A stretch of 64,000 nucleotides of DNA. Origin: Salinirussus salinus (GTDB lineage: Archaea; Halobacteriota; Halobacteria; Halobacteriales; Haloarculaceae). The DNA lies in the NCBI RefSeq assembly GCF_009831455.1, contig NZ_WOWO01000002.1:248001-312000 (forward strand), given 5' to 3'. Below the pieces are notes generated by a model, which worked only from the letters and a program-made list of their open reading frames with translations, searched no databases and was not told the origin of the DNA. Each line of letters starts with the position of its first letter. The stretch's first letter is position 1. A program made the translations under genes and the position numbers. This document shows, in pieces, positions 33,907-44,969 of the stretch.

Positions 33907-34728
33907 TCACAGGTACTCGACGTCTTCCACGGCGGAGTTGTAGATCCGCCACTCGCCCTGGTAGGTTCGCAACTCGTGGGTCTGGTGGGCGCGGTTGTCC
34001 CTGAACCCCGAGATGTCCGCCCGCGTCGTCTGGACGACCTCGACGTCCGCCCGGTCGCCGGAGACGTCGGCGGACTCGATGGTGACCTCGACAGTCAGCT
34101 CCCCGGCCGAGACCTGCTGGAGCAACGCTTCCGTCTGGGACCGCGTTCGGTCGTAGATCGGGGATTCGGGGTGCATCGTCTCCATGTACCTGTCGACGTC
34201 GCCCGCCTCCAGGGCCTGTGCGTTCTCCTCGATGACCGCGCGGACGTCGTCGGGCACGTCGCCGCCGAGCAGAAAGAACGCACCCCCGCCGACCGCGACG
34301 ACGCCGACGCCGCCGGCGACGAGGAGAGCCCGCCGACTCACGCCTCCACCATCCCCGTCCAGTCCCCGTCCCTGCTGTCCAGGTTTCCGCTGTGGCTGTC
34401 GCTGCTGTGGCTGCTGTTGCCCTGGCTGCTGTCGCTGTGGCTGCTGTCGCTGTGGCTGCTGTCGCTGTGGCTGTCCCTGCTGTGGCTGTCCCCGGTGTTG
34501 CTCCCCCTGCCGCGGTTGGCTCTGCGGGGGCTGCCCGTGAGATGGCTGTTCGCGGCCTGGCTGACCGCCCTGTCCCTGCTGTCGATTCGGCCGCTCCTGC
34601 CGGGGCGAGTCCTGCGGCGGCTGGCTGTCCCCCCGGTCGTTCCGGGCTTCACCGAGCGACGCTCCACAGGAGCTACAGAACGTGTCCGCTCCGTCGACGG
34701 TTCGACCACAGTTCGGGCACGACGGCAT
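33907..34728 (-). CDS. Zinc-ribbon, Gln-rich, single-helix, NTF2-like protein
   Basis: 273 residues in four parts. Residues 4-22 are a zinc ribbon (CPNCGRTVDGADTFCSSCG). Residues 27-125 are a low-complexity Gln/Pro/Arg spacer with QPQRQ-type tandem units. Residues 128-155 are a hydrophobic helix (SRRALLVAGGVGVVAVGGGAFFLLGG). The C-terminal 110 residues (EENAQALEAGDVDRYMETMHPESP, then beta strands) look like an NTF2-like/SnoaL cone domain, probably outside the membrane. The order predicts a cytosolic zinc domain joined to an external small-molecule or protein-binding domain. Function unknown. A TATA-like tract lies near 34755. Confidence 0.8.
   Translation of the reverse strand: MPSCPNCGRTVDGADTFCSSCGASLGEARNDRGDSQPPQDSPRQERPNRQQGQGGQPGREQPSHGQPPQSQPRQGEQHRGQPQQGQPQRQQPQRQQPQRQQPGQQQPQQRQPQRKPGQQGRGLDGDGGGVSRRALLVAGGVGVVAVGGGAFFLLGGDVPDDVRAVIEENAQALEAGDVDRYMETMHPESPIYDRTRSQTEALLQQVSAGELTVEVTIESADVSGDRADVEVVQTTRADISGFRDNRAHQTHELRTYQGEWRIYNSAVEDVEYL
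34426..34485 (-). repeat. 15-bp tandem codon repeats encoding the Gln/Pro/Arg spacer
   Basis: Three perfect tandem copies of a 15-bp unit (34426-34440, 34441-34455, 34456-34470) and a degenerate fourth (34471-34485). Each full unit encodes five residues of the PQRQQ spacer of the zinc-ribbon protein. Exact nucleotide identity points to recent expansion by slippage or unequal crossing over. Confidence 0.85.
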
Positions 34729-34885: not shown

Positions 34886-35347
34886 ATGACTGGTCAGGAC
34901 CGGCCGCCGGAGACCGGAGCGGAGACTGGAGACGAGGAGCCCCCGCCGTCGGAGCGCGGCAGTTCCTTCCCCGAGGGCACGTTCAACGACTGGCTCGGGC
35001 TCACGGTGGAGGAGATGGGCGACGGCAGGGCCGTCCTCTCGGTCGCCTACGAGGAGTTCAAGCAGAACCCCGACGGGGTGATGCAGGGCGGGGTCACCGC
35101 GACGCTGACCGACGTGGCCGGAGCCGTGGCGGTCCGGAGCGCGCTCGAGGGCGAGGAGGTCCCCATGGCGACGACGAACCTGGAGGTGAACTACCTCCGT
35201 CCCGTCACGGACACGGCGTACGCGACGGGCGAACTGGTCCGGCTCGGAGAGGCGAACGCGGTCATCGACGTGGAGGTCGAGAGCACGGCGCCGAGCGGCG
35301 AGCGGAAGACCGTCGCCATCGGAACGGTGACGTACACGCGCCAGTGA
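34886..35347 (+). CDS. PaaI-type hotdog thioesterase
   Basis: 153 residues. After a 30-residue acidic leader, the hotdog fold reads FNDWLGLTVEEMGDGRAVLS, NPDGVMQGGVTATLTDVAGAVAV (the active-site segment, normally with a His before GG, here VMQGG) and TTNLEVNYLRPVTDTAYATGELVRLG, then a final strand. PaaI-like enzymes hydrolyse acyl- or hydroxyphenylacetyl-CoA thioesters. The neighbourhood has a methylmalonyl-CoA-epimerase-like gene and acyl-CoA genes. It starts 68 bases before that gene. The substrate cannot be predicted. Confidence 0.85.
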   Translation: MTGQDRPPETGAETGDEEPPPSERGSSFPEGTFNDWLGLTVEEMGDGRAVLSVAYEEFKQNPDGVMQGGVTATLTDVAGAVAVRSALEGEEVPMATTNLEVNYLRPVTDTAYATGELVRLGEANAVIDVEVESTAPSGERKTVAIGTVTYTRQ

Positions 35348-35415
35348 GGCCGTCGCCGGCCCGGCGGCAGTCTGGCGGTATCTATTTTCCGGGCCGTGCC
35401 GATGGTCGGCACACG

Positions 35416-35883
35416 ATGCACGACACGCCGATCCGCGTCGACCACGTGGGGATCGCCGTCGAGTCGGTCGAGGCCGCCGAGCCGGTGTTGCAGGCGCTTG
35501 GCTGTGAGAAGCTCGTCGACGACACCGTCGAGGGCCGCTTTCGCTGGGTGTACTACACGCTCGGCGGGGCGTCGCGCCTCGAACTCATCGAACCGGTGGC
35601 CGAGGAGTCGTTTCTCACTGACTTTCTCGACCGGAACGGGCCGGGGCTCCACCACGTCACCTTCGAGGTGGCCGACATCGACGCGGTAATCGACACCCTG
35701 GAAGGGGAGGACATCGCCGTGGTGGACTACCAGGAGTTCGACGGCTGGACGGAGGCGTTCGTCTCGCCGGGGAACCCGACCGGTGCACTCTTCCAGCTGA
35801 TGGAGTACCACGAGAGCTACGTCGAGGAGACGGGGACGCCGGCGGAGTCGCTGTTCATCGACGGCCGCCCGGTCGGCGAGTGA
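35416..35883 (+). CDS. Glyoxalase/methylmalonyl-CoA epimerase-like protein
   Basis: 155 residues of the vicinal-oxygen-chelate fold: RVDHVGIAVESVEAAEPVLQALG (first beta-alpha-beta module with metal His10), RLELIEPVAEESF with a metal Glu, LHHVTFEVADIDAVI with the second metal His, and GNPTGALFQLMEY with the final Glu. Methylmalonyl-CoA epimerases have exactly this layout and interconvert (R)- and (S)-methylmalonyl-CoA in propionate metabolism. Another glyoxalase-like activity is possible. The gene lies between a thioesterase and a kinase-like gene. Confidence 0.78.
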   Translation: MHDTPIRVDHVGIAVESVEAAEPVLQALGCEKLVDDTVEGRFRWVYYTLGGASRLELIEPVAEESFLTDFLDRNGPGLHHVTFEVADIDAVIDTLEGEDIAVVDYQEFDGWTEAFVSPGNPTGALFQLMEYHESYVEETGTPAESLFIDGRPVGE

Positions 35884-35938
35884 GCCCCGCTCGCGACCGG
35901 CTCGCGGGTATCCGAGGGGAGGCTACCGACCGCCGGAC

Positions 35939-35948
35939 AACTATTTAC
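35939..35948 (+). promoter_or_regulatory. TATA element for the phosphotransferase
   Basis: The aactatttac tract is centred about 29 bases before the ATG at 35973. This spacing supports that start over the earlier in-frame ATG at 35952. Confidence 0.5.
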
Positions 35949-35972
35949 GACATGGCCCGGGTTGTTGGGAGT

Positions 35973-37046
35973 ATGTCCGCCGAAGACGACTACGAGACAC
36001 GCATCGCCGACGAGGAGGCGCTCGCAGCCCATCTCGGATCGGTGCTCGGCGAGGTGGACACCTACGCCGTCGAGCGCCACGAGGGCGGCCACTCCAACGA
36101 GACGCTCTTCGTGACCTGGGGCGACCGCGACCTGGTCGTTCGGCGGCCGCCGCCGGGCGAAACAGCGGAGAGCGCCCACGACGTGCTCCGGGAGTACACC
36201 GTGCTCTCGGCGCTGGGAGACACTGACGTCCGCACGCCGACCGTCGTCCACGCCTGCGAGGACGAGTCGGTGATCGGCAGCGAGTTCTACGTGATGGAGC
36301 AGCTGGCGGGCGACGTCATCCGCGACGAGGAGCCCGACCGGTTCGGCACGCCGGCCCGCCGCGAGCGGCTCGGCGAGGAACTGGTGGACGCGCTCGCCGA
36401 GATCCACCAGGTCGACTACGAGGCTGTCGGGCTCGGCGACTTCGGCCACCCCGAGGGGTACCTCGAACGCCAGGTCGACCGGTGGTGGAAGCAGTACGAG
36501 TGGGCCTTCGAGGTCACCGAGGAGGTCCGGTCGATCCCGGCCGTCGCGGAGGTCGGGGAGTGGCTCGAGGAAAACGTCCCCGAAGCACCCACCCACACGC
36601 TGGTCCACGGGGACTACAAGCTGGACAACGTGATGTTCGGGCCCGGGATTCCGCCCGAACTCGTCGGCGTCTTCGACTGGGAGATGAGCACGCTCGGGGA
36701 CCCGCTGGCGGACCTCGGGTGGATGCTCCACTTCTGGCGCGACCCTGACGACCCCGGCCCCCGCGAGGGCGACTCCGCTCCTGTCTTCACCGAGCGCGAG
36801 GGGTACCCGACCCGGCGGGAGCTCGTCGACCGGTACGAGCGACAGACCGGAATCGAGTTCGAGAACGAACGCTTCTACCGGGCGCTGACGGCGTTCAAGA
36901 TGGGTGGCATCGGGGAGATGTTCTTCCGGCGGTATCTGGAGGGCAACAGCGCCGACCCCACCTACCCGCTGATGGAGGAGCAGGTCCCGCTCCGCGTCCA
37001 GCGAGCAAAGGAGTTCATCGAGGCTGGCGACGACGGCCTCGTCTGA
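35973..37046 (+). CDS. Aminoglycoside-phosphotransferase-family kinase (ACAD10/11-like)
   Basis: 357 residues with the protein-kinase-like fold: a DLVVRRPPPGE nucleotide Lys/Arg region, TLVHGDYKLDNVMF with the catalytic loop HGD (His212, Asp214) and Asn219, and VGVFDWEMSTLGDPLADLGWML with the metal-binding DW. The C-terminal ALTAFKMGGIGEMFFRRYLEGN is as in the APH domains joined to acyl-CoA dehydrogenases (ACAD10/11), which phosphorylate hydroxyacyl-CoA during degradation. Its position beside thioesterase and epimerase genes fits acyl-CoA catabolism. The substrate is not shown directly. Other in-frame ATGs at 35880 and 35952 exist. Confidence 0.85.
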   Translation: MSAEDDYETRIADEEALAAHLGSVLGEVDTYAVERHEGGHSNETLFVTWGDRDLVVRRPPPGETAESAHDVLREYTVLSALGDTDVRTPTVVHACEDESVIGSEFYVMEQLAGDVIRDEEPDRFGTPARRERLGEELVDALAEIHQVDYEAVGLGDFGHPEGYLERQVDRWWKQYEWAFEVTEEVRSIPAVAEVGEWLEENVPEAPTHTLVHGDYKLDNVMFGPGIPPELVGVFDWEMSTLGDPLADLGWMLHFWRDPDDPGPREGDSAPVFTEREGYPTRRELVDRYERQTGIEFENERFYRALTAFKMGGIGEMFFRRYLEGNSADPTYPLMEEQVPLRVQRAKEFIEAGDDGLV

Positions 37047-37125: not shown

Positions 37126-37500
37126 CTACGATTCGTTGACCGGGGCTGTACTCTCCGCCTCGAGCTTCTCGATACGGGCGGCCTTCCGTTCCTCCCGTCG
37201 CGCTCGCGCCGAGTCGGCCATCATCCCCTGGTGCCACTCCATGCCTTGGTCCGTTTCGAGCGTAACCGACGACACGCCGTCCAACCCGCCGACTTTCCCC
37301 TCGACCTCGTCGACGAAATAGGGGATCTGCATACAGAACGGGGAGGTGAGCCGCAGCGAGACGGTCACGTGGGCCGACTCTATCTCGATGTCCGCCACCA
37401 GCCCCATCTCGACGAGGCCGAGGTCCGTCCCGTTGGCCGCACTGCACGGGTCGACGACCTCGTCCAGCCGCCGTTCGACCAGCTCCCGGTCGACCGTCAT
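37126..37500 (-). CDS. DUF59/MIP18-type iron-sulfur assembly protein, amidohydrolase partner
   Basis: 124 residues. The DUF59 body is present: VVDPCSAANGTDLGLVEMGLVADIEI with Cys19, VTVSLRLTSPFCMQIPYFVDEV with a second Cys, and a VTLETDQGMEWHQGMMADSARARREER helix at the end. Related proteins act as scaffolds or carriers in Fe-S cluster delivery (PaaD/SufT class). Its start overlaps the preceding amidohydrolase stop by four bases, so the two are translated as a unit. In bacterial propane/acetone monooxygenase operons, the same DUF59 and amidohydrolase pair occurs. Confidence 0.82.
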   Translation of the reverse strand: MTVDRELVERRLDEVVDPCSAANGTDLGLVEMGLVADIEIESAHVTVSLRLTSPFCMQIPYFVDEVEGKVGGLDGVSSVTLETDQGMEWHQGMMADSARARREERKAARIEKLEAESTAPVNES

Positions 37501-38597
37501 CCGACCACCTCGTCTGCCGCCTGCGTCGTCGAGTACGGCGCAGCCAGCTCGTCTCCCCCCTGACTGAACTCGTCGTCCTCGATACGGGACCTGGCTTCGT
37601 CGATATCTAGCCCGATGAACTCGGCGTAGTTCTCCCCGAGGATCTTCCGTTTGTGCTCGTCAGTGAGGTGCGGGACCTCACTCGTTCCACCCATGCTTTC
37701 GCGGACGTCTTCCGGGAACTGGAACTCGGCGAACGCTTCGAGTTGCGGGCGGGGGTGGATCGACATCGCCCCGGAGCTGTAGAACAGTTTCTCGACCCCG
37801 AGTTCGCCGGTCATGCTGAGCAGCTCGGCAAACACGTTGGCGAAGCGGCGCTCGTTCGCGACGAGGAGCGGGAAGAGCCCCTCGAGGTTGGCGTAGACGT
37901 TCGGGAATCTGGCCAGTTGCCAGGCAGTCTCCTCGGCGAAGGCGACCCCGGCGTGGACGATACTGAAGTCGATATCGGGGAAGCTCTCGGCCGCCACGTC
38001 CACGTCACCGGGATGGTAGTCCGACCGCGGGACCGGGCCGAACGGGATAGCCTTGTGGATGTCGATGCGGTCGAGACCCATGTCGACCGCCTTCTCGAAC
38101 ACCGGGAAGGCCACCTCCGGGTCGCCCATGCTCCAGCCCTCGTAGGTGTCCTCGCTCCAGTGTGACGGGTACAGTTTGACACCCAGCGGGTCGAAGGCGT
38201 CGGCCTGTTCCTCCAGGGCCCGCTCCCACCCGTCCCGGAGGGGGTCGACCGAGGCGTACGCCCGGAACCTGTCGGGCCACCGATCCATCACCTCGGCGGC
38301 TTTCTCGTTGGCGACGAGCCCGTCGTGGAACGCGTACATCGGGACGGGCTGGAAGGTCGCCATGTCCGTCCGGCTCTCCCGGAAGAGCATGTTCGCCGTC
38401 TCCTCGACGCCCCAGTCCCGGACGAACCCGTCTTGCGAAAGGTGATACTCCGCCGGCCCGATATCCGTGTTGCCGGCGAGCATCCCGACGATCCCCTCGG
38501 CGTGGCGCTCGTTCCGGTAGTTCGAGGGCGCCATGTTGTACGCGTGCGTGATCGAGTCGTAGACGAACGTCTCGTTGAGGTCTACCACGGACGACAC
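37497..38597 (-). CDS. Amidohydrolase-2-family TIM-barrel protein with altered metal site
   Basis: 366 residues of the amidohydrolase_2 TIM barrel. Features are YDSITHAYN near the start in place of the usual DxHxH, PLGVKLYPSHW, RIDIHKAIPFGP, IDFSIVHAGVAFAEETAW and FYSSGAMSIHPRPQLEAF. The last segment is where family members, including the second copy at 43750, have STDxPH with a metal Asp; here that Asp is Gly. So the metal centre may be changed or lost. The gene is joined by a 4-base overlap to the DUF59 gene. The start is a GTG at 38597. It is divergent from a zinc alcohol dehydrogenase. Confidence 0.82.
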   Translation of the reverse strand: MSSVVDLNETFVYDSITHAYNMAPSNYRNERHAEGIVGMLAGNTDIGPAEYHLSQDGFVRDWGVEETANMLFRESRTDMATFQPVPMYAFHDGLVANEKAAEVMDRWPDRFRAYASVDPLRDGWERALEEQADAFDPLGVKLYPSHWSEDTYEGWSMGDPEVAFPVFEKAVDMGLDRIDIHKAIPFGPVPRSDYHPGDVDVAAESFPDIDFSIVHAGVAFAEETAWQLARFPNVYANLEGLFPLLVANERRFANVFAELLSMTGELGVEKLFYSSGAMSIHPRPQLEAFAEFQFPEDVRESMGGTSEVPHLTDEHKRKILGENYAEFIGLDIDEARSRIEDDEFSQGGDELAAPYSTTQAADEVVG

Positions 38598-38751
38598 CCC
38601 CGGACACCGGACCGCGCGGTGCTGACTGTGCTATGTTCTACCGTGGCTATGTCACACATACGTCTCCCGGAATGGTTACCTCAAAATCATAAATCTACTG
38701 GTCGGCCCCCCGGTCCCACCCCGACGAGGGAGGGAACGCAGGACCCCTCAA

Positions 38752-38760
38752 CATTTAATG
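38752..38760 (+). promoter_or_regulatory. TATA element for the alcohol dehydrogenase
   Basis: The catttaatg tract lies about 27 bases before the ATG at 38784, in an intergenic region between divergent genes. Confidence 0.5.
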
Positions 38761-38783
38761 ACTATGGATTGAAACGTACCCGC

Positions 38784-39854
38784 ATGAGAGCCGCGACGTA
38801 CCACGGACAGGGAGACGTCCGCGTCGAAGAGGTCGACGCCCCTGCTGGTCCCGGGGCGGACGAGATCCGGGTCTCGGTCACCGCCTGCGGGATCTGCGGG
38901 TCGGACCTCCACGAATACGCCGCCGGGCCGGTCGCGATCCCCGACGACGACCCACACCCGCTCACCGGCGAGACGCTCCCGGTCCCGCTGGGCCACGAGT
39001 TCGCCGGGGAAGTCGCCGAGGTCGGTGCCGACGTCGACGACATCTCCGCTGGCGACCCCGTGACGGTCAATCCCCTCCTCTACTGCGGGGAGTGTCGACA
39101 CTGTGTTGCCGGTCACCACAACCGGTGTGAATCCGGCGGCTTCATCGGCCTCTCCGGGGGCAGGGGTGGACTCGCCGAGGAGGTCGTCGTTTCGCGGGAG
39201 AAAGCCGTCCGGCTCCCGGACGCGCTCCCCGTCGGGTACGGCGCGCTCGCCGAACCCTTCAGCGTCGGCTTCCACGCCGTCCGTACCAGTCCCCTCGCTC
39301 CAGGCGACTCCGTCGCCGTCTACGGTGCCGGCCCGATCGGCCTCACCGTCATCCAGGCTGCCCGCGCCGCCGGCGCCGACACGGTCTACGCCGTCGAACC
39401 GCAGGACACACGCCGCGACCTCGCCGGGGCCGTCGGGGCGGACGGGACGCTGGACCCGACCGCGACGGACACGGTCGCGCAGATCCACGAGCGGGCCGGC
39501 GGCGTCGACGTCTCCTTCGAAGTCGCCGGCGTCGAGCAGACGCTGCAGGATGCGGTCACAGCGACCACCGCCGGCGGCCACACTACCGTCATCAGCCAGT
39601 TCGAGGGCGCCGTGGAGGTCGACCCGAACCTCTTCGTCATGGGCGAACGCTCCCTCGACGGCACGCTCGCGTACGAGGGTGGCCCCCGGTCGGACGAGGA
39701 GTTCGGTCCCGTCGTCGGGATGTTCGCATCCGGCGCGCTCGACCCCGAGCCCCTCGTCAGCAGCTGCATCCCCCTCGACGATGTCGTCGAAGACGGCTTC
39801 GATGCGCTGCTGGACCCCGACCGGGAGGAGGTGAAGGTTCTCGTCGAACTGTAG
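38784..39854 (+). CDS. Zinc-dependent alcohol dehydrogenase (MDR, butanediol/threonine-dehydrogenase-like)
   Basis: 356 residues. Catalytic zinc ligands lie in CGICGSDLHEYAAG and PLGHEFAGEVAEVG (His of GHE). The structural zinc lobe is LLYCGECRHCVAGHHNRC, with four Cys. The coenzyme site is SVAVYGAGPIGLTVIQAARAAGA, followed by an AVEPQDTRR acidic turn that usually prefers NAD. The shape matches (R,R)-butanediol and sorbitol-type dehydrogenases. It could oxidise a short secondary alcohol or ketol, such as 2-propanol-like compounds. It is transcribed divergently from the amidohydrolase/DUF59 pair. Confidence 0.9.
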   Translation: MRAATYHGQGDVRVEEVDAPAGPGADEIRVSVTACGICGSDLHEYAAGPVAIPDDDPHPLTGETLPVPLGHEFAGEVAEVGADVDDISAGDPVTVNPLLYCGECRHCVAGHHNRCESGGFIGLSGGRGGLAEEVVVSREKAVRLPDALPVGYGALAEPFSVGFHAVRTSPLAPGDSVAVYGAGPIGLTVIQAARAAGADTVYAVEPQDTRRDLAGAVGADGTLDPTATDTVAQIHERAGGVDVSFEVAGVEQTLQDAVTATTAGGHTTVISQFEGAVEVDPNLFVMGERSLDGTLAYEGGPRSDEEFGPVVGMFASGALDPEPLVSSCIPLDDVVEDGFDALLDPDREEVKVLVEL

Positions 39855-39917: not shown

Positions 39918-40901
39918 ATGACGGCTACTGGCATCACCGTGGGCGGCGGCGACCGCGAGGACCTGTTCGAGTACGCGACTCTGGCCGAGTCGGCGGGGCT
40001 CGAGTCGGTCTGGGTCGGGGAGTCGTGGGGTCCCGCCTCCGTACCGGCGATGACGCAGTTGCTCGAACGCACCGACACGATCGACGTCTGCTCGGGTATT
40101 TTCAACATCTACAGCCGGACGCCGGGGCTCGTCGCCATGACGGCGAACACGCTCGCGGACATCGGGGACGGCCGCTTTCGCGTCGGCATCGGCGCGAGCG
40201 GTCCGGCGGTGATCGAGAACTTCCACGGCGTCGAGTTCGAGGCGCCGCTCCGGCGGACCCGGGAGTACATCGAGACCGTCCGGGGTTTTCTCCGCGGCGA
40301 CCGCGTCGAGTACGACGGCGAATTCTTCGACCTCTCGGGGTTCCAGCTCGACGTGGACACCTACCACGAGTGTCCGATATACGTCGCGGCAATGGGTGAA
40401 ACGAACCGCCAGCTGTCCGGGGAATTCGCCGACGGCTGGATGCCCTTTATCCTCCCGTCGTCGGGGCTCGACGACGCGCTCGAGGCCGTCCACCGTGGTG
40501 CCTCTCGCGGCGACCGCGAGCCCGACGCCATCGACGTGGCACCGTGGGTCCCGACCTGCATCTCCGAGACAGACCCAGAGGCGGCACGCCAGCACGCCGC
40601 CTCAGTCGTCGGCTTCTACGTCGGCGCGATGGGCGACTACTACGCCGATGCCGTCACCAACTTCGGGTTCGGCGAGGAGGCCGACGCCATCCAGGCGGGC
40701 TGGGCGGACGACGGGCCTGCCGGGGCCGCCGCCGCGGTCACCGACGAGATGGTCGACGCGTTCTGCGCCGCCGGGACACCCGAACAAGCAGCCGAGAGCT
40801 TCGACCGTTTCGGGGCGGCCGGGGCCGACTCGCCGGTGGCCTACCTCCCGGCCCAGAGTGCGCCGGAGGAGATGCTTCGCGAGACAGTCGAGCATCTCTG
40901 A
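39918..40901 (+). CDS. LLM-class flavin/F420-dependent oxidoreductase
   Basis: 327 residues of the luciferase-like TIM barrel: FEYATLAESAGLESVWVGESW at the start, LLERTDTIDVCSGIFNIYSRTPGLVAMTANTLADIGDGRFRVGIGASGP in the core and PIYVAAMGETNRQLSGEFADGWMPF towards the end. This is the pattern of F420-dependent reductases such as Mer, or FMN-dependent monooxygenases. Haloarchaea make F420, so either cofactor is possible. It begins 63 bases after the alcohol dehydrogenase and probably shares its transcript. Confidence 0.87.
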   Translation: MTATGITVGGGDREDLFEYATLAESAGLESVWVGESWGPASVPAMTQLLERTDTIDVCSGIFNIYSRTPGLVAMTANTLADIGDGRFRVGIGASGPAVIENFHGVEFEAPLRRTREYIETVRGFLRGDRVEYDGEFFDLSGFQLDVDTYHECPIYVAAMGETNRQLSGEFADGWMPFILPSSGLDDALEAVHRGASRGDREPDAIDVAPWVPTCISETDPEAARQHAASVVGFYVGAMGDYYADAVTNFGFGEEADAIQAGWADDGPAGAAAAVTDEMVDAFCAAGTPEQAAESFDRFGAAGADSPVAYLPAQSAPEEMLRETVEHL

Positions 40902-42897: not shown

Positions 42898-43296
42898 ATG
42901 GACGCCGACCCCGACGGTGGCGGGGATGTCGAGAAGTTAGAGGGGAGAGACCCGGGGGAAGACCCGGAAGACCCGTACGAGGACACCGACATCTCCGAGC
43001 TGCCGGACTGGTGGCGGAGAACCATCGAGGAGTTCCGGCGGTACGGGCTCCGTCCGTACCGTCCGCCGCGCTTCGAGGACGGGGTGCTCAAACACGAGAC
43101 CGTCGACGACCTCGAGCAAGAATACGGGATCGAGATCCGCTTTGTCGCGTACGCGTCGCAGGTCGGGAACGCGTGGGAGGTACAGGTCGACGGAGAGGCG
43201 GTCGGGAAGATCGAACGCCGGCGTTCGCCGGAGGGCTACACGGTCTACGGGATGGAGAGCGACGCGTTCGTCGACTTCGTCGAAGCGAAGCTCTGA
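42898..43296 (+). CDS. Conserved-type acidic small protein of unknown function
   Basis: 132 residues. An acidic, disordered N-terminal third (DPDGGGDVEKLEGRDPGEDPEDPYEDTDIS) precedes WWRRTIEEFRRYGLRPYRPPRFEDG and a compact end domain (IEIRFVAYASQVGNAWEVQVDGEAVGKIERRRSPEGYTVYGMESDAF). The composition is typical for a haloarchaeal cytosolic protein. I do not recognise a family. It may be paired with the upstream zinc-ribbon gene or the downstream Rieske gene, both on the same strand, but each has its own promoter-like tract. Confidence 0.72.
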   Translation: MDADPDGGGDVEKLEGRDPGEDPEDPYEDTDISELPDWWRRTIEEFRRYGLRPYRPPRFEDGVLKHETVDDLEQEYGIEIRFVAYASQVGNAWEVQVDGEAVGKIERRRSPEGYTVYGMESDAFVDFVEAKL

Positions 43297-43388: not shown

Positions 43389-43748
43389 ATGCCAACACGT
43401 CACCTGATCGCCGAGGAGTCCGAACTCGCCGAGGAGGGCGACCGCGTCCTGGCCGACGTCCGCGGGACCGAGGTCGCGGTGTTCCGGGTCGAGGGAGAAC
43501 TCCACGCGCTGGTGAATTTCTGTGTCCACCAGGGTGGCCCGCTCTGCGAGGGCGACCTCTCCGGCGAGTACGGCATCGCGGACGACGGCTGGGAGTGGAC
43601 CTACGACGACGTCCAGAAGAACGTCACCTGCCCCTGGCACGGCTGGAAGTTCGACGTCCGCGACGGGAAGAGCATCGACGACGACCGGTACCGGGTCCCG
43701 ACCTACGACGTGGAGGTCGAGGACGGTAACGTCTACGTCCTGCGGTAG
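43389..43748 (+). CDS. Rieske-type [2Fe-2S] ferredoxin
   Basis: 119 residues. FCVHQGGPLCEG gives Cys45 and His47; the second pair, Cys81 and His84, is in VTCPWHGWKFD. This Cys-x-His and Cys-x2-His set binds one Rieske cluster. The short length and lack of a membrane anchor suggest a free electron carrier, as for the ferredoxin part of ring-hydroxylating oxygenases, or a nitrite-reductase-like small subunit. A catabolic oxygenase is not seen nearby. It is convergent with an amidohydrolase, which ends one base later on the opposite strand. Confidence 0.88.
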   Translation: MPTRHLIAEESELAEEGDRVLADVRGTEVAVFRVEGELHALVNFCVHQGGPLCEGDLSGEYGIADDGWEWTYDDVQKNVTCPWHGWKFDVRDGKSIDDDRYRVPTYDVEVEDGNVYVLR

Positions 43749-43749
43749 T

Positions 43750-44871
43750 TCAGATCCCGAACACCTCCATCGCCTTCTCGCCCATCAGCTTGCGCACCTG
43801 GTCGTCGTCGAGCTGTGCTTTCGCCGGTTTGAGGACCTCGCTGGGCGGGTCGAAGTCGGGGTGGGGATGGTCCGTCGAATACAGCAGCGTGTCGCCGCCG
43901 CCGGCCATCTCCATCGCCCACCCCATGTGCTGGGTGTCGTCGGTGTGACCGAGCGGCTGGGTCGTGATGTGGAACTGGTCTCTGATGTACTCGCTGGGCC
44001 GTTTCGTGAGCATCGGGAAGTCCTGCGAGCACTGGAGGTAGTGGTCGTCGAGCCGCCACATCATCCAGGGGAGCCACTCCGCACCCGACTCCTGGAGCAC
44101 CCACTCAAGGTCGGGGAACTTCTCGGGGACGCCGTTGCAGACAAGCGAGATGAGGTGCCACATCGATTCGACGGGGAAGCTGAAGGCGTGGCTCTCCGAG
44201 AACGTCTCGGCCCACCGGCGCTGGACGGGGAACGTGCTCGCGGCCTGGACGTCCTGGCTGTGCATCACGACGGGGAGCCCGTGGTCCTGGGCGGCCTCGT
44301 AGATGGGGTCGTACATGCGGTGCCCCGCCGGCGGCACCAGCCCCGCCGCGGGGAGCTGTACACCGACGACCTGGTCTTCGGTGGCCATGCGGTCGATCTC
44401 CTCGGGCATCCGGTCGGGCACCTGGCTGGCGACCGAGAGGGTCGCGTAGAGGCGGTCGTCCGTGTCGATCCACTTGTCGAGCAGCCAGTCGTTGTAGGCC
44501 CGCGCGAGCGCGTCTGCGGTCTGGTCGTGGTTGACTGTCCCGAGCAGCCCCGGCGGGGTGAGGACGCTGTAGTCGACGTTGAACTCGTTCATGAACCCGA
44601 TCTTCCCCTCCGGGTCCGTCGAGTCGTGGCCCGCCCCCGAACTCGAGTAGGCGTCGGCGTTCGGGAAGGCGGGGCTCGCGCGTGTGACTGTGTAGATCTC
44701 GTTGTACACCATCCCGCTCTCGGCCGCCGTTTCGATCATGTCACGGGCGGCGTTCGACTCGTCGATGTAGTCGACGAGGTGCTCGGCCGCCGAAAAGGAC
44801 AGGTGCGAGTCCGCGTCGACGATAGTCAGTTCTTCCGCGGTGAGGGCGGGTTCTGTCTGCTGGGTTGCCAT
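43750..44871 (-). CDS. Amidohydrolase-2-family TIM-barrel protein with intact metal site
   Basis: 373 residues. Metal ligands appear intact: IVDADSHLSFSAAEH (DxDxH) at the start, GVQLPAAGLVPPAGHRMYDPIYEAAQDHGLPVVMHSQDVQAA mid-chain, LISLVCNGVPEKFPDLEWVLQESGAEW and LLYSTDHPHPDFDPP with the metal Asp. This is the ACMSD/decarboxylase and hydrolase branch. Paralogue of the protein at 37497 but with the canonical end motif. A TATA-like aataaatt tract (44901-44908, minus-strand sense) about 30 bases upstream supports the start at 44871 over the longer frame. Substrate unknown. Confidence 0.85.
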   Translation of the reverse strand: MATQQTEPALTAEELTIVDADSHLSFSAAEHLVDYIDESNAARDMIETAAESGMVYNEIYTVTRASPAFPNADAYSSSGAGHDSTDPEGKIGFMNEFNVDYSVLTPPGLLGTVNHDQTADALARAYNDWLLDKWIDTDDRLYATLSVASQVPDRMPEEIDRMATEDQVVGVQLPAAGLVPPAGHRMYDPIYEAAQDHGLPVVMHSQDVQAASTFPVQRRWAETFSESHAFSFPVESMWHLISLVCNGVPEKFPDLEWVLQESGAEWLPWMMWRLDDHYLQCSQDFPMLTKRPSEYIRDQFHITTQPLGHTDDTQHMGWAMEMAGGGDTLLYSTDHPHPDFDPPSEVLKPAKAQLDDDQVRKLMGEKAMEVFGI

Positions 44872-44969
44872 GCGTTGCCACACCATTCAGCACCCGGTAC
44901 AATAAATTCGGTGGGGGGTCGTGGGCGGACCTGGGGGAGTGAAAATCCACTATGGTGACAGAAGACGAA

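Follow-up and report, generated by a model that had tools for sequence, protein, structure and literature searches.

The 64,000-nucleotide stretch of the Salinirussus salinus genome analyzed here (assembly GCF_009831455.1, contig NZ_WOWO01000002.1, positions 248,001-312,000 of the forward strand; hereafter, the window, whose own positions are used throughout) encodes an amidohydrolase and a short DUF59 protein that were previously noted, from the sequence alone, as part of a possible accessory set of a soluble diiron monooxygenase. The analysis described below shows that these two genes, whose amidohydrolase has an unusual active site, are the core of the locus and form a widespread unit, and does not support the monooxygenase interpretation.

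The sequence-only reading grouped the two genes with an adjacent alcohol dehydrogenase (ADH) gene. Pfam matches confirmed all three protein types, and the proposed translational coupling or divergence of the genes was borne out as well: the stop codon of the amidohydrolase gene and the start codon of the DUF59 gene share a 4-base overlap (ATGA), and the amidohydrolase and ADH genes start divergently, 186 bases apart, with TATA-like A/T-rich stretches (judged by eye) facing both genes. A longer open reading frame (ORF) for the ADH, starting at 38325, is spurious. The genes are arranged as follows (aa, amino acids):

37126-37500, minus strand: short DUF59 (MIP18/SufT-fold) protein, 124 aa (PF01883, DUF59/FeS_assembly_P, E 2.1e-11)
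37497-38597, minus strand: kind-W amidohydrolase (see below), 366 aa, with altered metal-site residues (Amidohydro_2, PF04909, E 4.4e-16)
38598-38783, no strand: divergent intergenic region between the amidohydrolase and ADH starts (defined from the sequence)
38784-39854, plus strand: Zn-dependent medium-chain ADH, 356 aa, 2,3-butanediol-dehydrogenase-like (ADH_N, E 5.4e-26; ADH_zinc_N, E 8.7e-24)

Conservation of the amidohydrolase-DUF59 pair

The amidohydrolase-DUF59 gene pairs separate cleanly into two kinds, denoted here W and M, and the window pair belongs to kind W, which is spread across archaea, actinobacteria, proteobacteria, and myxobacteria. The distinction came from the loci of the 38 same-family genomes matched by the window amidohydrolase, compared alongside plasmid records and 80 named genome loci. 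The kind-W alignment comprises 86 loci (80 named genome loci, five plasmid loci, and the window). In the amidohydrolase, His18, Lys141, His181, Lys182, His215, Glu223, Asn237, Glu239, and His281 are each present in all 86 sequences; position 16 is occupied by V, I, L, S, or T, and position 276 by G or A, so that two standard metal ligands, the first His of the HxH motif and the Asp after strand 8, are missing in kind W. A DUF59 gene lies directly 3' of the amidohydrolase gene at 84 of the 86 loci, both misses being at contig ends, and at 66 of these 84 the gap between the genes is -4, -8, or -1 base. The partners themselves are similarly uniform, with D17, P18, C19, G33, T52, C56, and W89 identical in 84 of 84; the Cys of the DP-C motif comes in addition to the one typical of DUF59 proteins. 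An additional class-level draw of haloarchaeal loci, which partly repeats genomes already read, produced kind-W residues together with a DP-C DUF59 protein at 30 of 30 loci.

The DUF59 protein of the window belongs to the DUF59/MIP18 fold (44.4 bits for PF01883, against a cut-off of 23.5, along with a SufT-like fold match); its AlphaFold2 model (mean predicted local distance difference test, pLDDT, 96.0) has 3cq2 as the closest solved fold (E 1.1e-7) and also yields SufT-like matches. It scored 30.4 bits against the 180 required by the NCBIfam equivalog model of PaaD, the phenylacetyl-CoA epoxidase protein, and is thus not assigned to that family.

The two varieties of DUF59 follow the two kinds of amidohydrolase, DP-C accompanying kind W and DPE accompanying kind M. 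The distance matrices of the two proteins, compared for 82 of the 84 kind-W pairs, correlate with r of 0.82, the highest value among 1000 permutations being 0.09, although common ancestry alone would also yield a correlation. Taken together, the adjacency, co-inheritance, and paired motif change make it well supported that the amidohydrolase and the DUF59 protein act together.

Relationship to the monooxygenase operons

Six monooxygenase operons on plasmids carry kind M. This kind is represented by 29 rows, including at least 4 duplicates (L027/L059, L030/L062, L066/L067, and L068/L079). In its amidohydrolase, H16 and H18 are each found in 28 of the 29 rows and D223 and D276 in all 29, along with Gly237 and Ala239, and the partner in all 29 rows is a DUF59 protein of about 250 aa with a DPE motif. 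In two of the kind-M amidohydrolases, those of L084 and L206, Ala replaces the second His of HxH (A18 in L206). The window proteins lack these signatures except for H18: in place of H16-x-H18, Asp223, and Asp276, the amidohydrolase carries I16, H18, E223, and G276, and the 124-aa DUF59 protein carries DPC.

The amidohydrolases that adjoin annotated monooxygenase subunits, in Aminobacter, Bradyrhizobium, Caballeronia, Ponticoccus, and Gemmobacter, are all of kind M, and so is the amidohydrolase of a Rhodococcus aetherivorans plasmid, with the monooxygenase hydroxylase (PF02332) encoded about 2 kb away. At locus L206, PF02332 is present in the same record, near the kind-M amidohydrolase; Rhizobium N324 has kind M in a record without PF02332. 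In the plasmid of Thermomicrobium roseum (L080), a DUF59-amidohydrolase-ADH set is located at 530 kb and the PF02332 genes are about 370 kb away. Monooxygenase operons that include amidohydrolase and Fe-S assembly genes have already been described (PMC9213486), and proteome data show high levels of an amidohydrolase-like protein alongside a Mim-type operon (PMC7176365).

In the amidohydrolase tree, built from 105 of the 141 aligned sequences and 3 outgroups (36 near-copies and fragments were left out), kind M forms a single clade with support of 100. The window protein groups with those of Salinadaptatus and Natrinema (support 99) within a haloarchaeal group, its nearest kind-W relative being 74% identical. 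The split between the two kinds persists when six plasmid rows are added, of which five come from records with an operon or with PF02332. Forcing the window protein onto the operon/M clade lowered the log-likelihood by 46, with p of 0.064 in the approximately unbiased test, which means that the tree does not suffice for a formal exclusion of such a grouping; the differences in residues and partners weigh more heavily in the argument. The root of the tree is unsure (outgroup branches of 3.4 to 5.7), and accordingly, we make no claim as to which kind is ancestral.

Another line of evidence comes from searches for the hydroxylase itself. No match to PF02332 was found in the S. salinus genome (3.37 Mb, 4 contigs, 99.8% complete); the negative result is informative because the positive control, an Aminobacter plasmid with a known monooxygenase operon, was matched in the same search (14 control genomes never matched). 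Among 21 kind-W genomes searched singly, 17 lack PF02332. The window amidohydrolase used as a query produced a match in 38 of 146 genomes of the same family, and PF02332 is present in one of the 146, a kind-M genome. A profile search across haloarchaea gave matches in 152 of 391 genomes, 54 with kind W and 98 with kind M only (kinds assigned by score band, at least 326 bits for W and at most 240 bits for M, with residues read for fetched loci only). PF02332 was found in 4 of the 391, of which two have kind W and none is among the 98 kind-M-only genomes; PF02332 subunit pairs in these rare haloarchaea are seen at G047:C1:183311-185142 and in the same four of the 391 genomes.

It is therefore scarcely credible that the window genes serve a soluble diiron monooxygenase as accessory factors, whether that enzyme is encoded elsewhere or has been lost; the link does not survive the refutation criteria set out in the sequence-only reading. 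The same broad families do occur in monooxygenase operons (PMC9213486), but the operon amidohydrolases belong to a different clade, differ from the window protein at positions 16, 223, 237, 239, 276, and 281, and have a different DUF59 partner, and the haloarchaeal co-occurrence data give the proposed link no backing. We rejected this explanation, and with it the suggestion that the oxygenase resides elsewhere in the genome. The other option raised in the sequence-only reading, a separate archaeal role, is the better of the two as far as a separate role is concerned, but this role is not specifically archaeal.

The composition characteristic of monooxygenase operons is, in fact, seen in kind M outside such operons. 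A kind-M amidohydrolase, a long DUF59 protein, and an ADH occur together in the haloarchaeal loci L053-L074 and in L078 and L079. An NAD(P)-alcohol dehydrogenase is encoded within 3 kb, mostly divergently, in 20 of the 21 kind-M genomes of the same family as S. salinus; two of these 21, G040 and G041, look identical. The kind-M set is common and conserved in haloarchaea devoid of PF02332 and mostly exists there without a soluble monooxygenase.

A separate candidate oxygenase system

The statement that the window encodes no diiron monooxygenase is valid for the soluble PF02332 type only; it does not extend to another class of enzymes, a candidate of which is encoded some 4 kb beyond the ADH gene, in tail-to-tail arrangement with a Rieske protein gene:

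43389-43748, plus strand: small Rieske [2Fe-2S] ferredoxin, separate system (PF00355, E 8e-16)
43750-44886, minus strand: candidate amidohydrolase-related dinuclear oxygenase, separate system (PF04909; matches to solved structures, ligand residues)

The best solved relatives of the product of 43750-44886 are 8sm7 (E 9.7e-55), SfbO (8sm6, E 9.3e-44), and the AibH chains (6m1w, E 3.1e-32 and 9.7e-31). It contains all six residues of the AibH2 ligand set (D26, H28, H209, E266, D339, and H342) along with D344, in a spacing close to that given for AibH2 (PMC7782822). Judging from these matches and residues, 43750-44886 is a candidate amidohydrolase-related dinuclear oxygenase, the activity of the class, O2-dependent hydroxylation with an Fe2 or Mn/Fe center, being a prediction here. 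This class of enzymes, its Rieske neighbors, and its presence in haloarchaea have been published (PMC10811679, PMC10401708, and PMC12141560). A small Rieske protein is indeed encoded next to the candidate, but the two genes are convergent and hence do not form one transcript. Upstream of the Rieske gene, a 132-aa ORF (42898-43296) has no match in Pfam or NCBIfam.

The S. salinus genome encodes five homologs of this oxygenase at E of 1e-30 or better, the further four being located at G000:C1:45759-46895, C1:388985-389860, C2:959967-960785, and C2:1218701-1219531, and at least one homolog is present in 30 of the 146 genomes of the same family. The proximity of the two systems inside the window might suggest that the kind-W pair, or its DUF59 protein, serves the candidate oxygenase and the ferredoxin. 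However, none of the other 85 kind-W loci has a strong homolog of the oxygenase nearby (the best has E of 1.8e-13, at L126) or a homolog of the window Rieske protein within 10 kb, and the co-occurrence is weak, with an oxygenase homolog in 7 of 20 kind-W genomes against the 30 in the whole set of 146 (hypergeometric p 0.08). For these reasons, the oxygenase and the Rieske protein are treated as a separate system, and a functional connection with the pair appears highly improbable.

Predicted structure and active site of the amidohydrolase

The AlphaFold2 model of the kind-W amidohydrolase from the window is a TIM barrel with a mean pLDDT of 95.6. Its best structural neighbor is 3irs (Z 25.2), followed by decarboxylases of PF04909 (Z about 21) and the amidohydrolase-related oxygenase entries 8sm7-8sm9 (Z about 18); DitZ (8uyr), for which the literature search turned up no paper, is also among the neighbors. 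A phmmer search of solved structures with the window amidohydrolase gave no match, and a search with the amidohydrolase profile gave 3irs alone (E 5.5e-6). In the model, His18, His181, and His215 are located at or immediately after strands 1, 5, and 6; the helix after strand 6 contains Glu223, and the loop past strand 8 contains His281.

These neighbors raise the question of whether the amidohydrolase is itself an oxygenase, related to the amidohydrolase-related dinuclear oxygenases, with an iron site assembled by the DUF59 protein. Such oxygenases exist within PF04909 (PMC10811679), 8sm7-8sm9 are structural neighbors, and some kind-W loci have luciferase-like monooxygenase or FAD oxygenase genes nearby. 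The AibH2 ligand set, D-x-H, H, E, and D-x-x-H (PMC7782822), is not reproduced, however: in alignment positions placed by eye, three of the six ligands differ (V/I16, His215 at the place of Glu, and G276), and position 279, the place of His340, is variable. Combined with the missing Rieske homolog within 10 kb of the other 85 loci and the greater structural similarity to the decarboxylases and 3irs, this makes an oxygenase activity of the amidohydrolase decidedly unlikely.

Genomic neighborhood of the pair

The sequence-only reading treated the ADH as the third member of a unit, which the comparison of the loci does not bear out. An ADH related to the one in the window is encoded within 1.1 kb of the pair at 5 of the 86 loci including the window, with identities of 53, 53, 42, and 35% in the other four, and none of the nearest relatives of the window pair (L091, L092, L093, L031, and L036) has an ADH of this cluster. 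The fixed trio was rejected on these grounds; the ADH is an optional neighbor and the unit consists of the amidohydrolase and DUF59 genes. The closest solved chain to the window ADH is 6ie0, an (R,R)-butanediol dehydrogenase (E 2.9e-87), a sequence match that suggests a butanediol-dehydrogenase-like enzyme. Other genes around the pair include:

39918-40901, plus strand: luciferase-like F420-type oxidoreductase, 3' of the ADH gene (PF00296, E 5.7e-70; TIGR04024, 310 bits, below the cut-off of 345)
34886-37046, plus strand: hotdog thioesterase, methylmalonyl-CoA-epimerase-like protein, and APH-type kinase, convergent with the DUF59 gene (Pfam/NCBIfam)

Farther away, 33907-34728 on the minus strand encodes a zinc-ribbon protein with a long linker of Gln/Pro/Arg-rich repeats.

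Across the kind-W loci, the recurrent neighbors are short-chain dehydrogenases/reductases (SDR), AMP-ligases, thiolases, acyl-CoA dehydrogenases, alpha/beta hydrolases, FAA hydrolase, cupin, and luciferase-like enzymes; in Natrinema, ligase and thiolase genes precede the pair. The catabolic genes among these (SDR, AMP-ligase, thiolase, acyl-CoA dehydrogenase, FAA hydrolase, and cupin) speak for the function proposed below.

Proposed function

The reading we favor, tentatively and with somewhat less than even confidence, is that the kind-W amidohydrolase is a lyase or hydrolase that depends on a metal in a rewired site, has a DUF59 partner of its own to serve it, and takes part in small-molecule catabolism, the chemistry being predicted. 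Under this proposal, His18, His181, His215, and His281, together with a Glu, would bind a metal, most likely iron; the DUF59 partner would insert or hold the metal, such that the altered site is loaded or completed by the DUF59 protein; and the amidohydrolase, with lyase, hydrolase, or decarboxylase activity, might convert intermediates formed by the acyl-CoA enzymes and dehydrogenases (SDR or Zn-ADH) encoded nearby. In the S. salinus genome, the divergent butanediol-dehydrogenase-like ADH may supply or remove the substrate. The choice of iron, the role of the DUF59 protein as inserter, and the type of reaction are inferred.

Several observations weigh against this proposal. The metal, the substrate, and the interaction of the two proteins are predictions, and the putative metal site was placed from strand positions in the model. 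Enrichment of neighbors compared to the regions 5-10 kb away is modest (SDR, ADH, and AMP-ligase; for SDR, 0.60 against 0.36 per 10 kb), and acyl-CoA dehydrogenase and thiolase genes show no enrichment by this comparison. In myxobacteria, the acyl-CoA set is replaced by other recurrent neighbors of the pair, namely a sensor kinase, an M28 peptidase, transporters, and a 2OG-Fe oxygenase-like protein. Among 25 further kind-W rows, with DPC-S/T in 20 and DPC-A in one, two, both of them readings of the single locus G131, are without the DP-C motif; no DUF59 gene was found at the fragmentary locus G107, and another row is cut by a contig end.

The strongest form of the proposal, which we regard as possible but somewhat doubtful, is that the pair represents an undescribed class of two-component metalloenzymes, in which a barrel with an all-His/Glu iron (or iron-sulfur) site replacing the zinc-type one would be combined with a two-Cys DUF59 protein as a dedicated insertase or second subunit, the whole being a catabolic module shared by haloarchaea and several bacterial phyla. 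Our search of the literature, which covered few subscription journals and no bioRxiv preprints, found no description of the kind-W pair; the papers it returned included a rubber-tree array study and a work on haloarchaeal PaaD that lists an unrelated amidohydrolase in a table of expression data.

Alternatively, the amidohydrolase-like protein could be non-enzymatic and, jointly with the DUF59 protein, form a complex that matures another metalloenzyme or acts as a scaffold for it. The loss of two canonical metal ligands, the iron-sulfur assembly type of the partner, the location of kind M in monooxygenase operons with GroEL, and the precedent of AibH1, a non-catalytic subunit with the amidohydrolase fold (PMC7782822), are all compatible with this possibility. 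We nevertheless consider it unlikely because no one client enzyme is found repeatedly next to kind W and many polar active-site residues are invariant, unlike in a typical pseudoenzyme.

DUF59 proteins are usually general assembly factors. If the proposal of a dedicated partner is correct, a DUF59 protein tied one-to-one to one enzyme family, with a coordinated change of the active site, would offer a simple two-protein system for the study of DUF59 function. In many genomes (54 of 391 haloarchaeal ones, by the kind-W score band), the blanket annotation "amidohydrolase family protein / iron-sulfur cluster assembly protein" would then need correction as well.

Comparison with known systems

The kind-W amidohydrolase shares the TIM barrel, with His residues at strands 5 and 6, with the PF04909 decarboxylases (2,3-dihydroxybenzoate decarboxylase, 5-carboxyvanillate decarboxylase, and ACMSD; Z 18-21), but lacks their first metal His and the Asp, and is only 10-16% identical to them over the structural match. 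PtmU3, AibH2, and SfbO belong to the same fold family as well; in contrast to these, the paired amidohydrolase is devoid of the six-ligand set, and its relatives are not accompanied by a Rieske partner of the window type.

The DUF59 protein has the same fold and the conserved Cys of the SufT/MIP18 proteins. It differs from them in the DP-C motif that replaces DPE, in the extra residues inserted there, and in the pairing with an amidohydrolase, and scores below the NCBIfam cut-offs for SufT-type families (42.8 of 143.4 bits and 37.9 of 202.6 bits). The known role of DUF59 proteins is in the maturation of Fe-S proteins (PMC4982691).

The operons of propane/acetone-type soluble diiron monooxygenases likewise contain adjacent PF04909 and DUF59 genes, often with an ADH gene nearby. 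The operon kind of the pair is defined by HxH, Asp223, Asp276, and a DUF59 protein of about 250 aa with DPE, whereas the window kind combines V/I16, Glu223, Gly276, and His281 with a short DP-C DUF59 protein.

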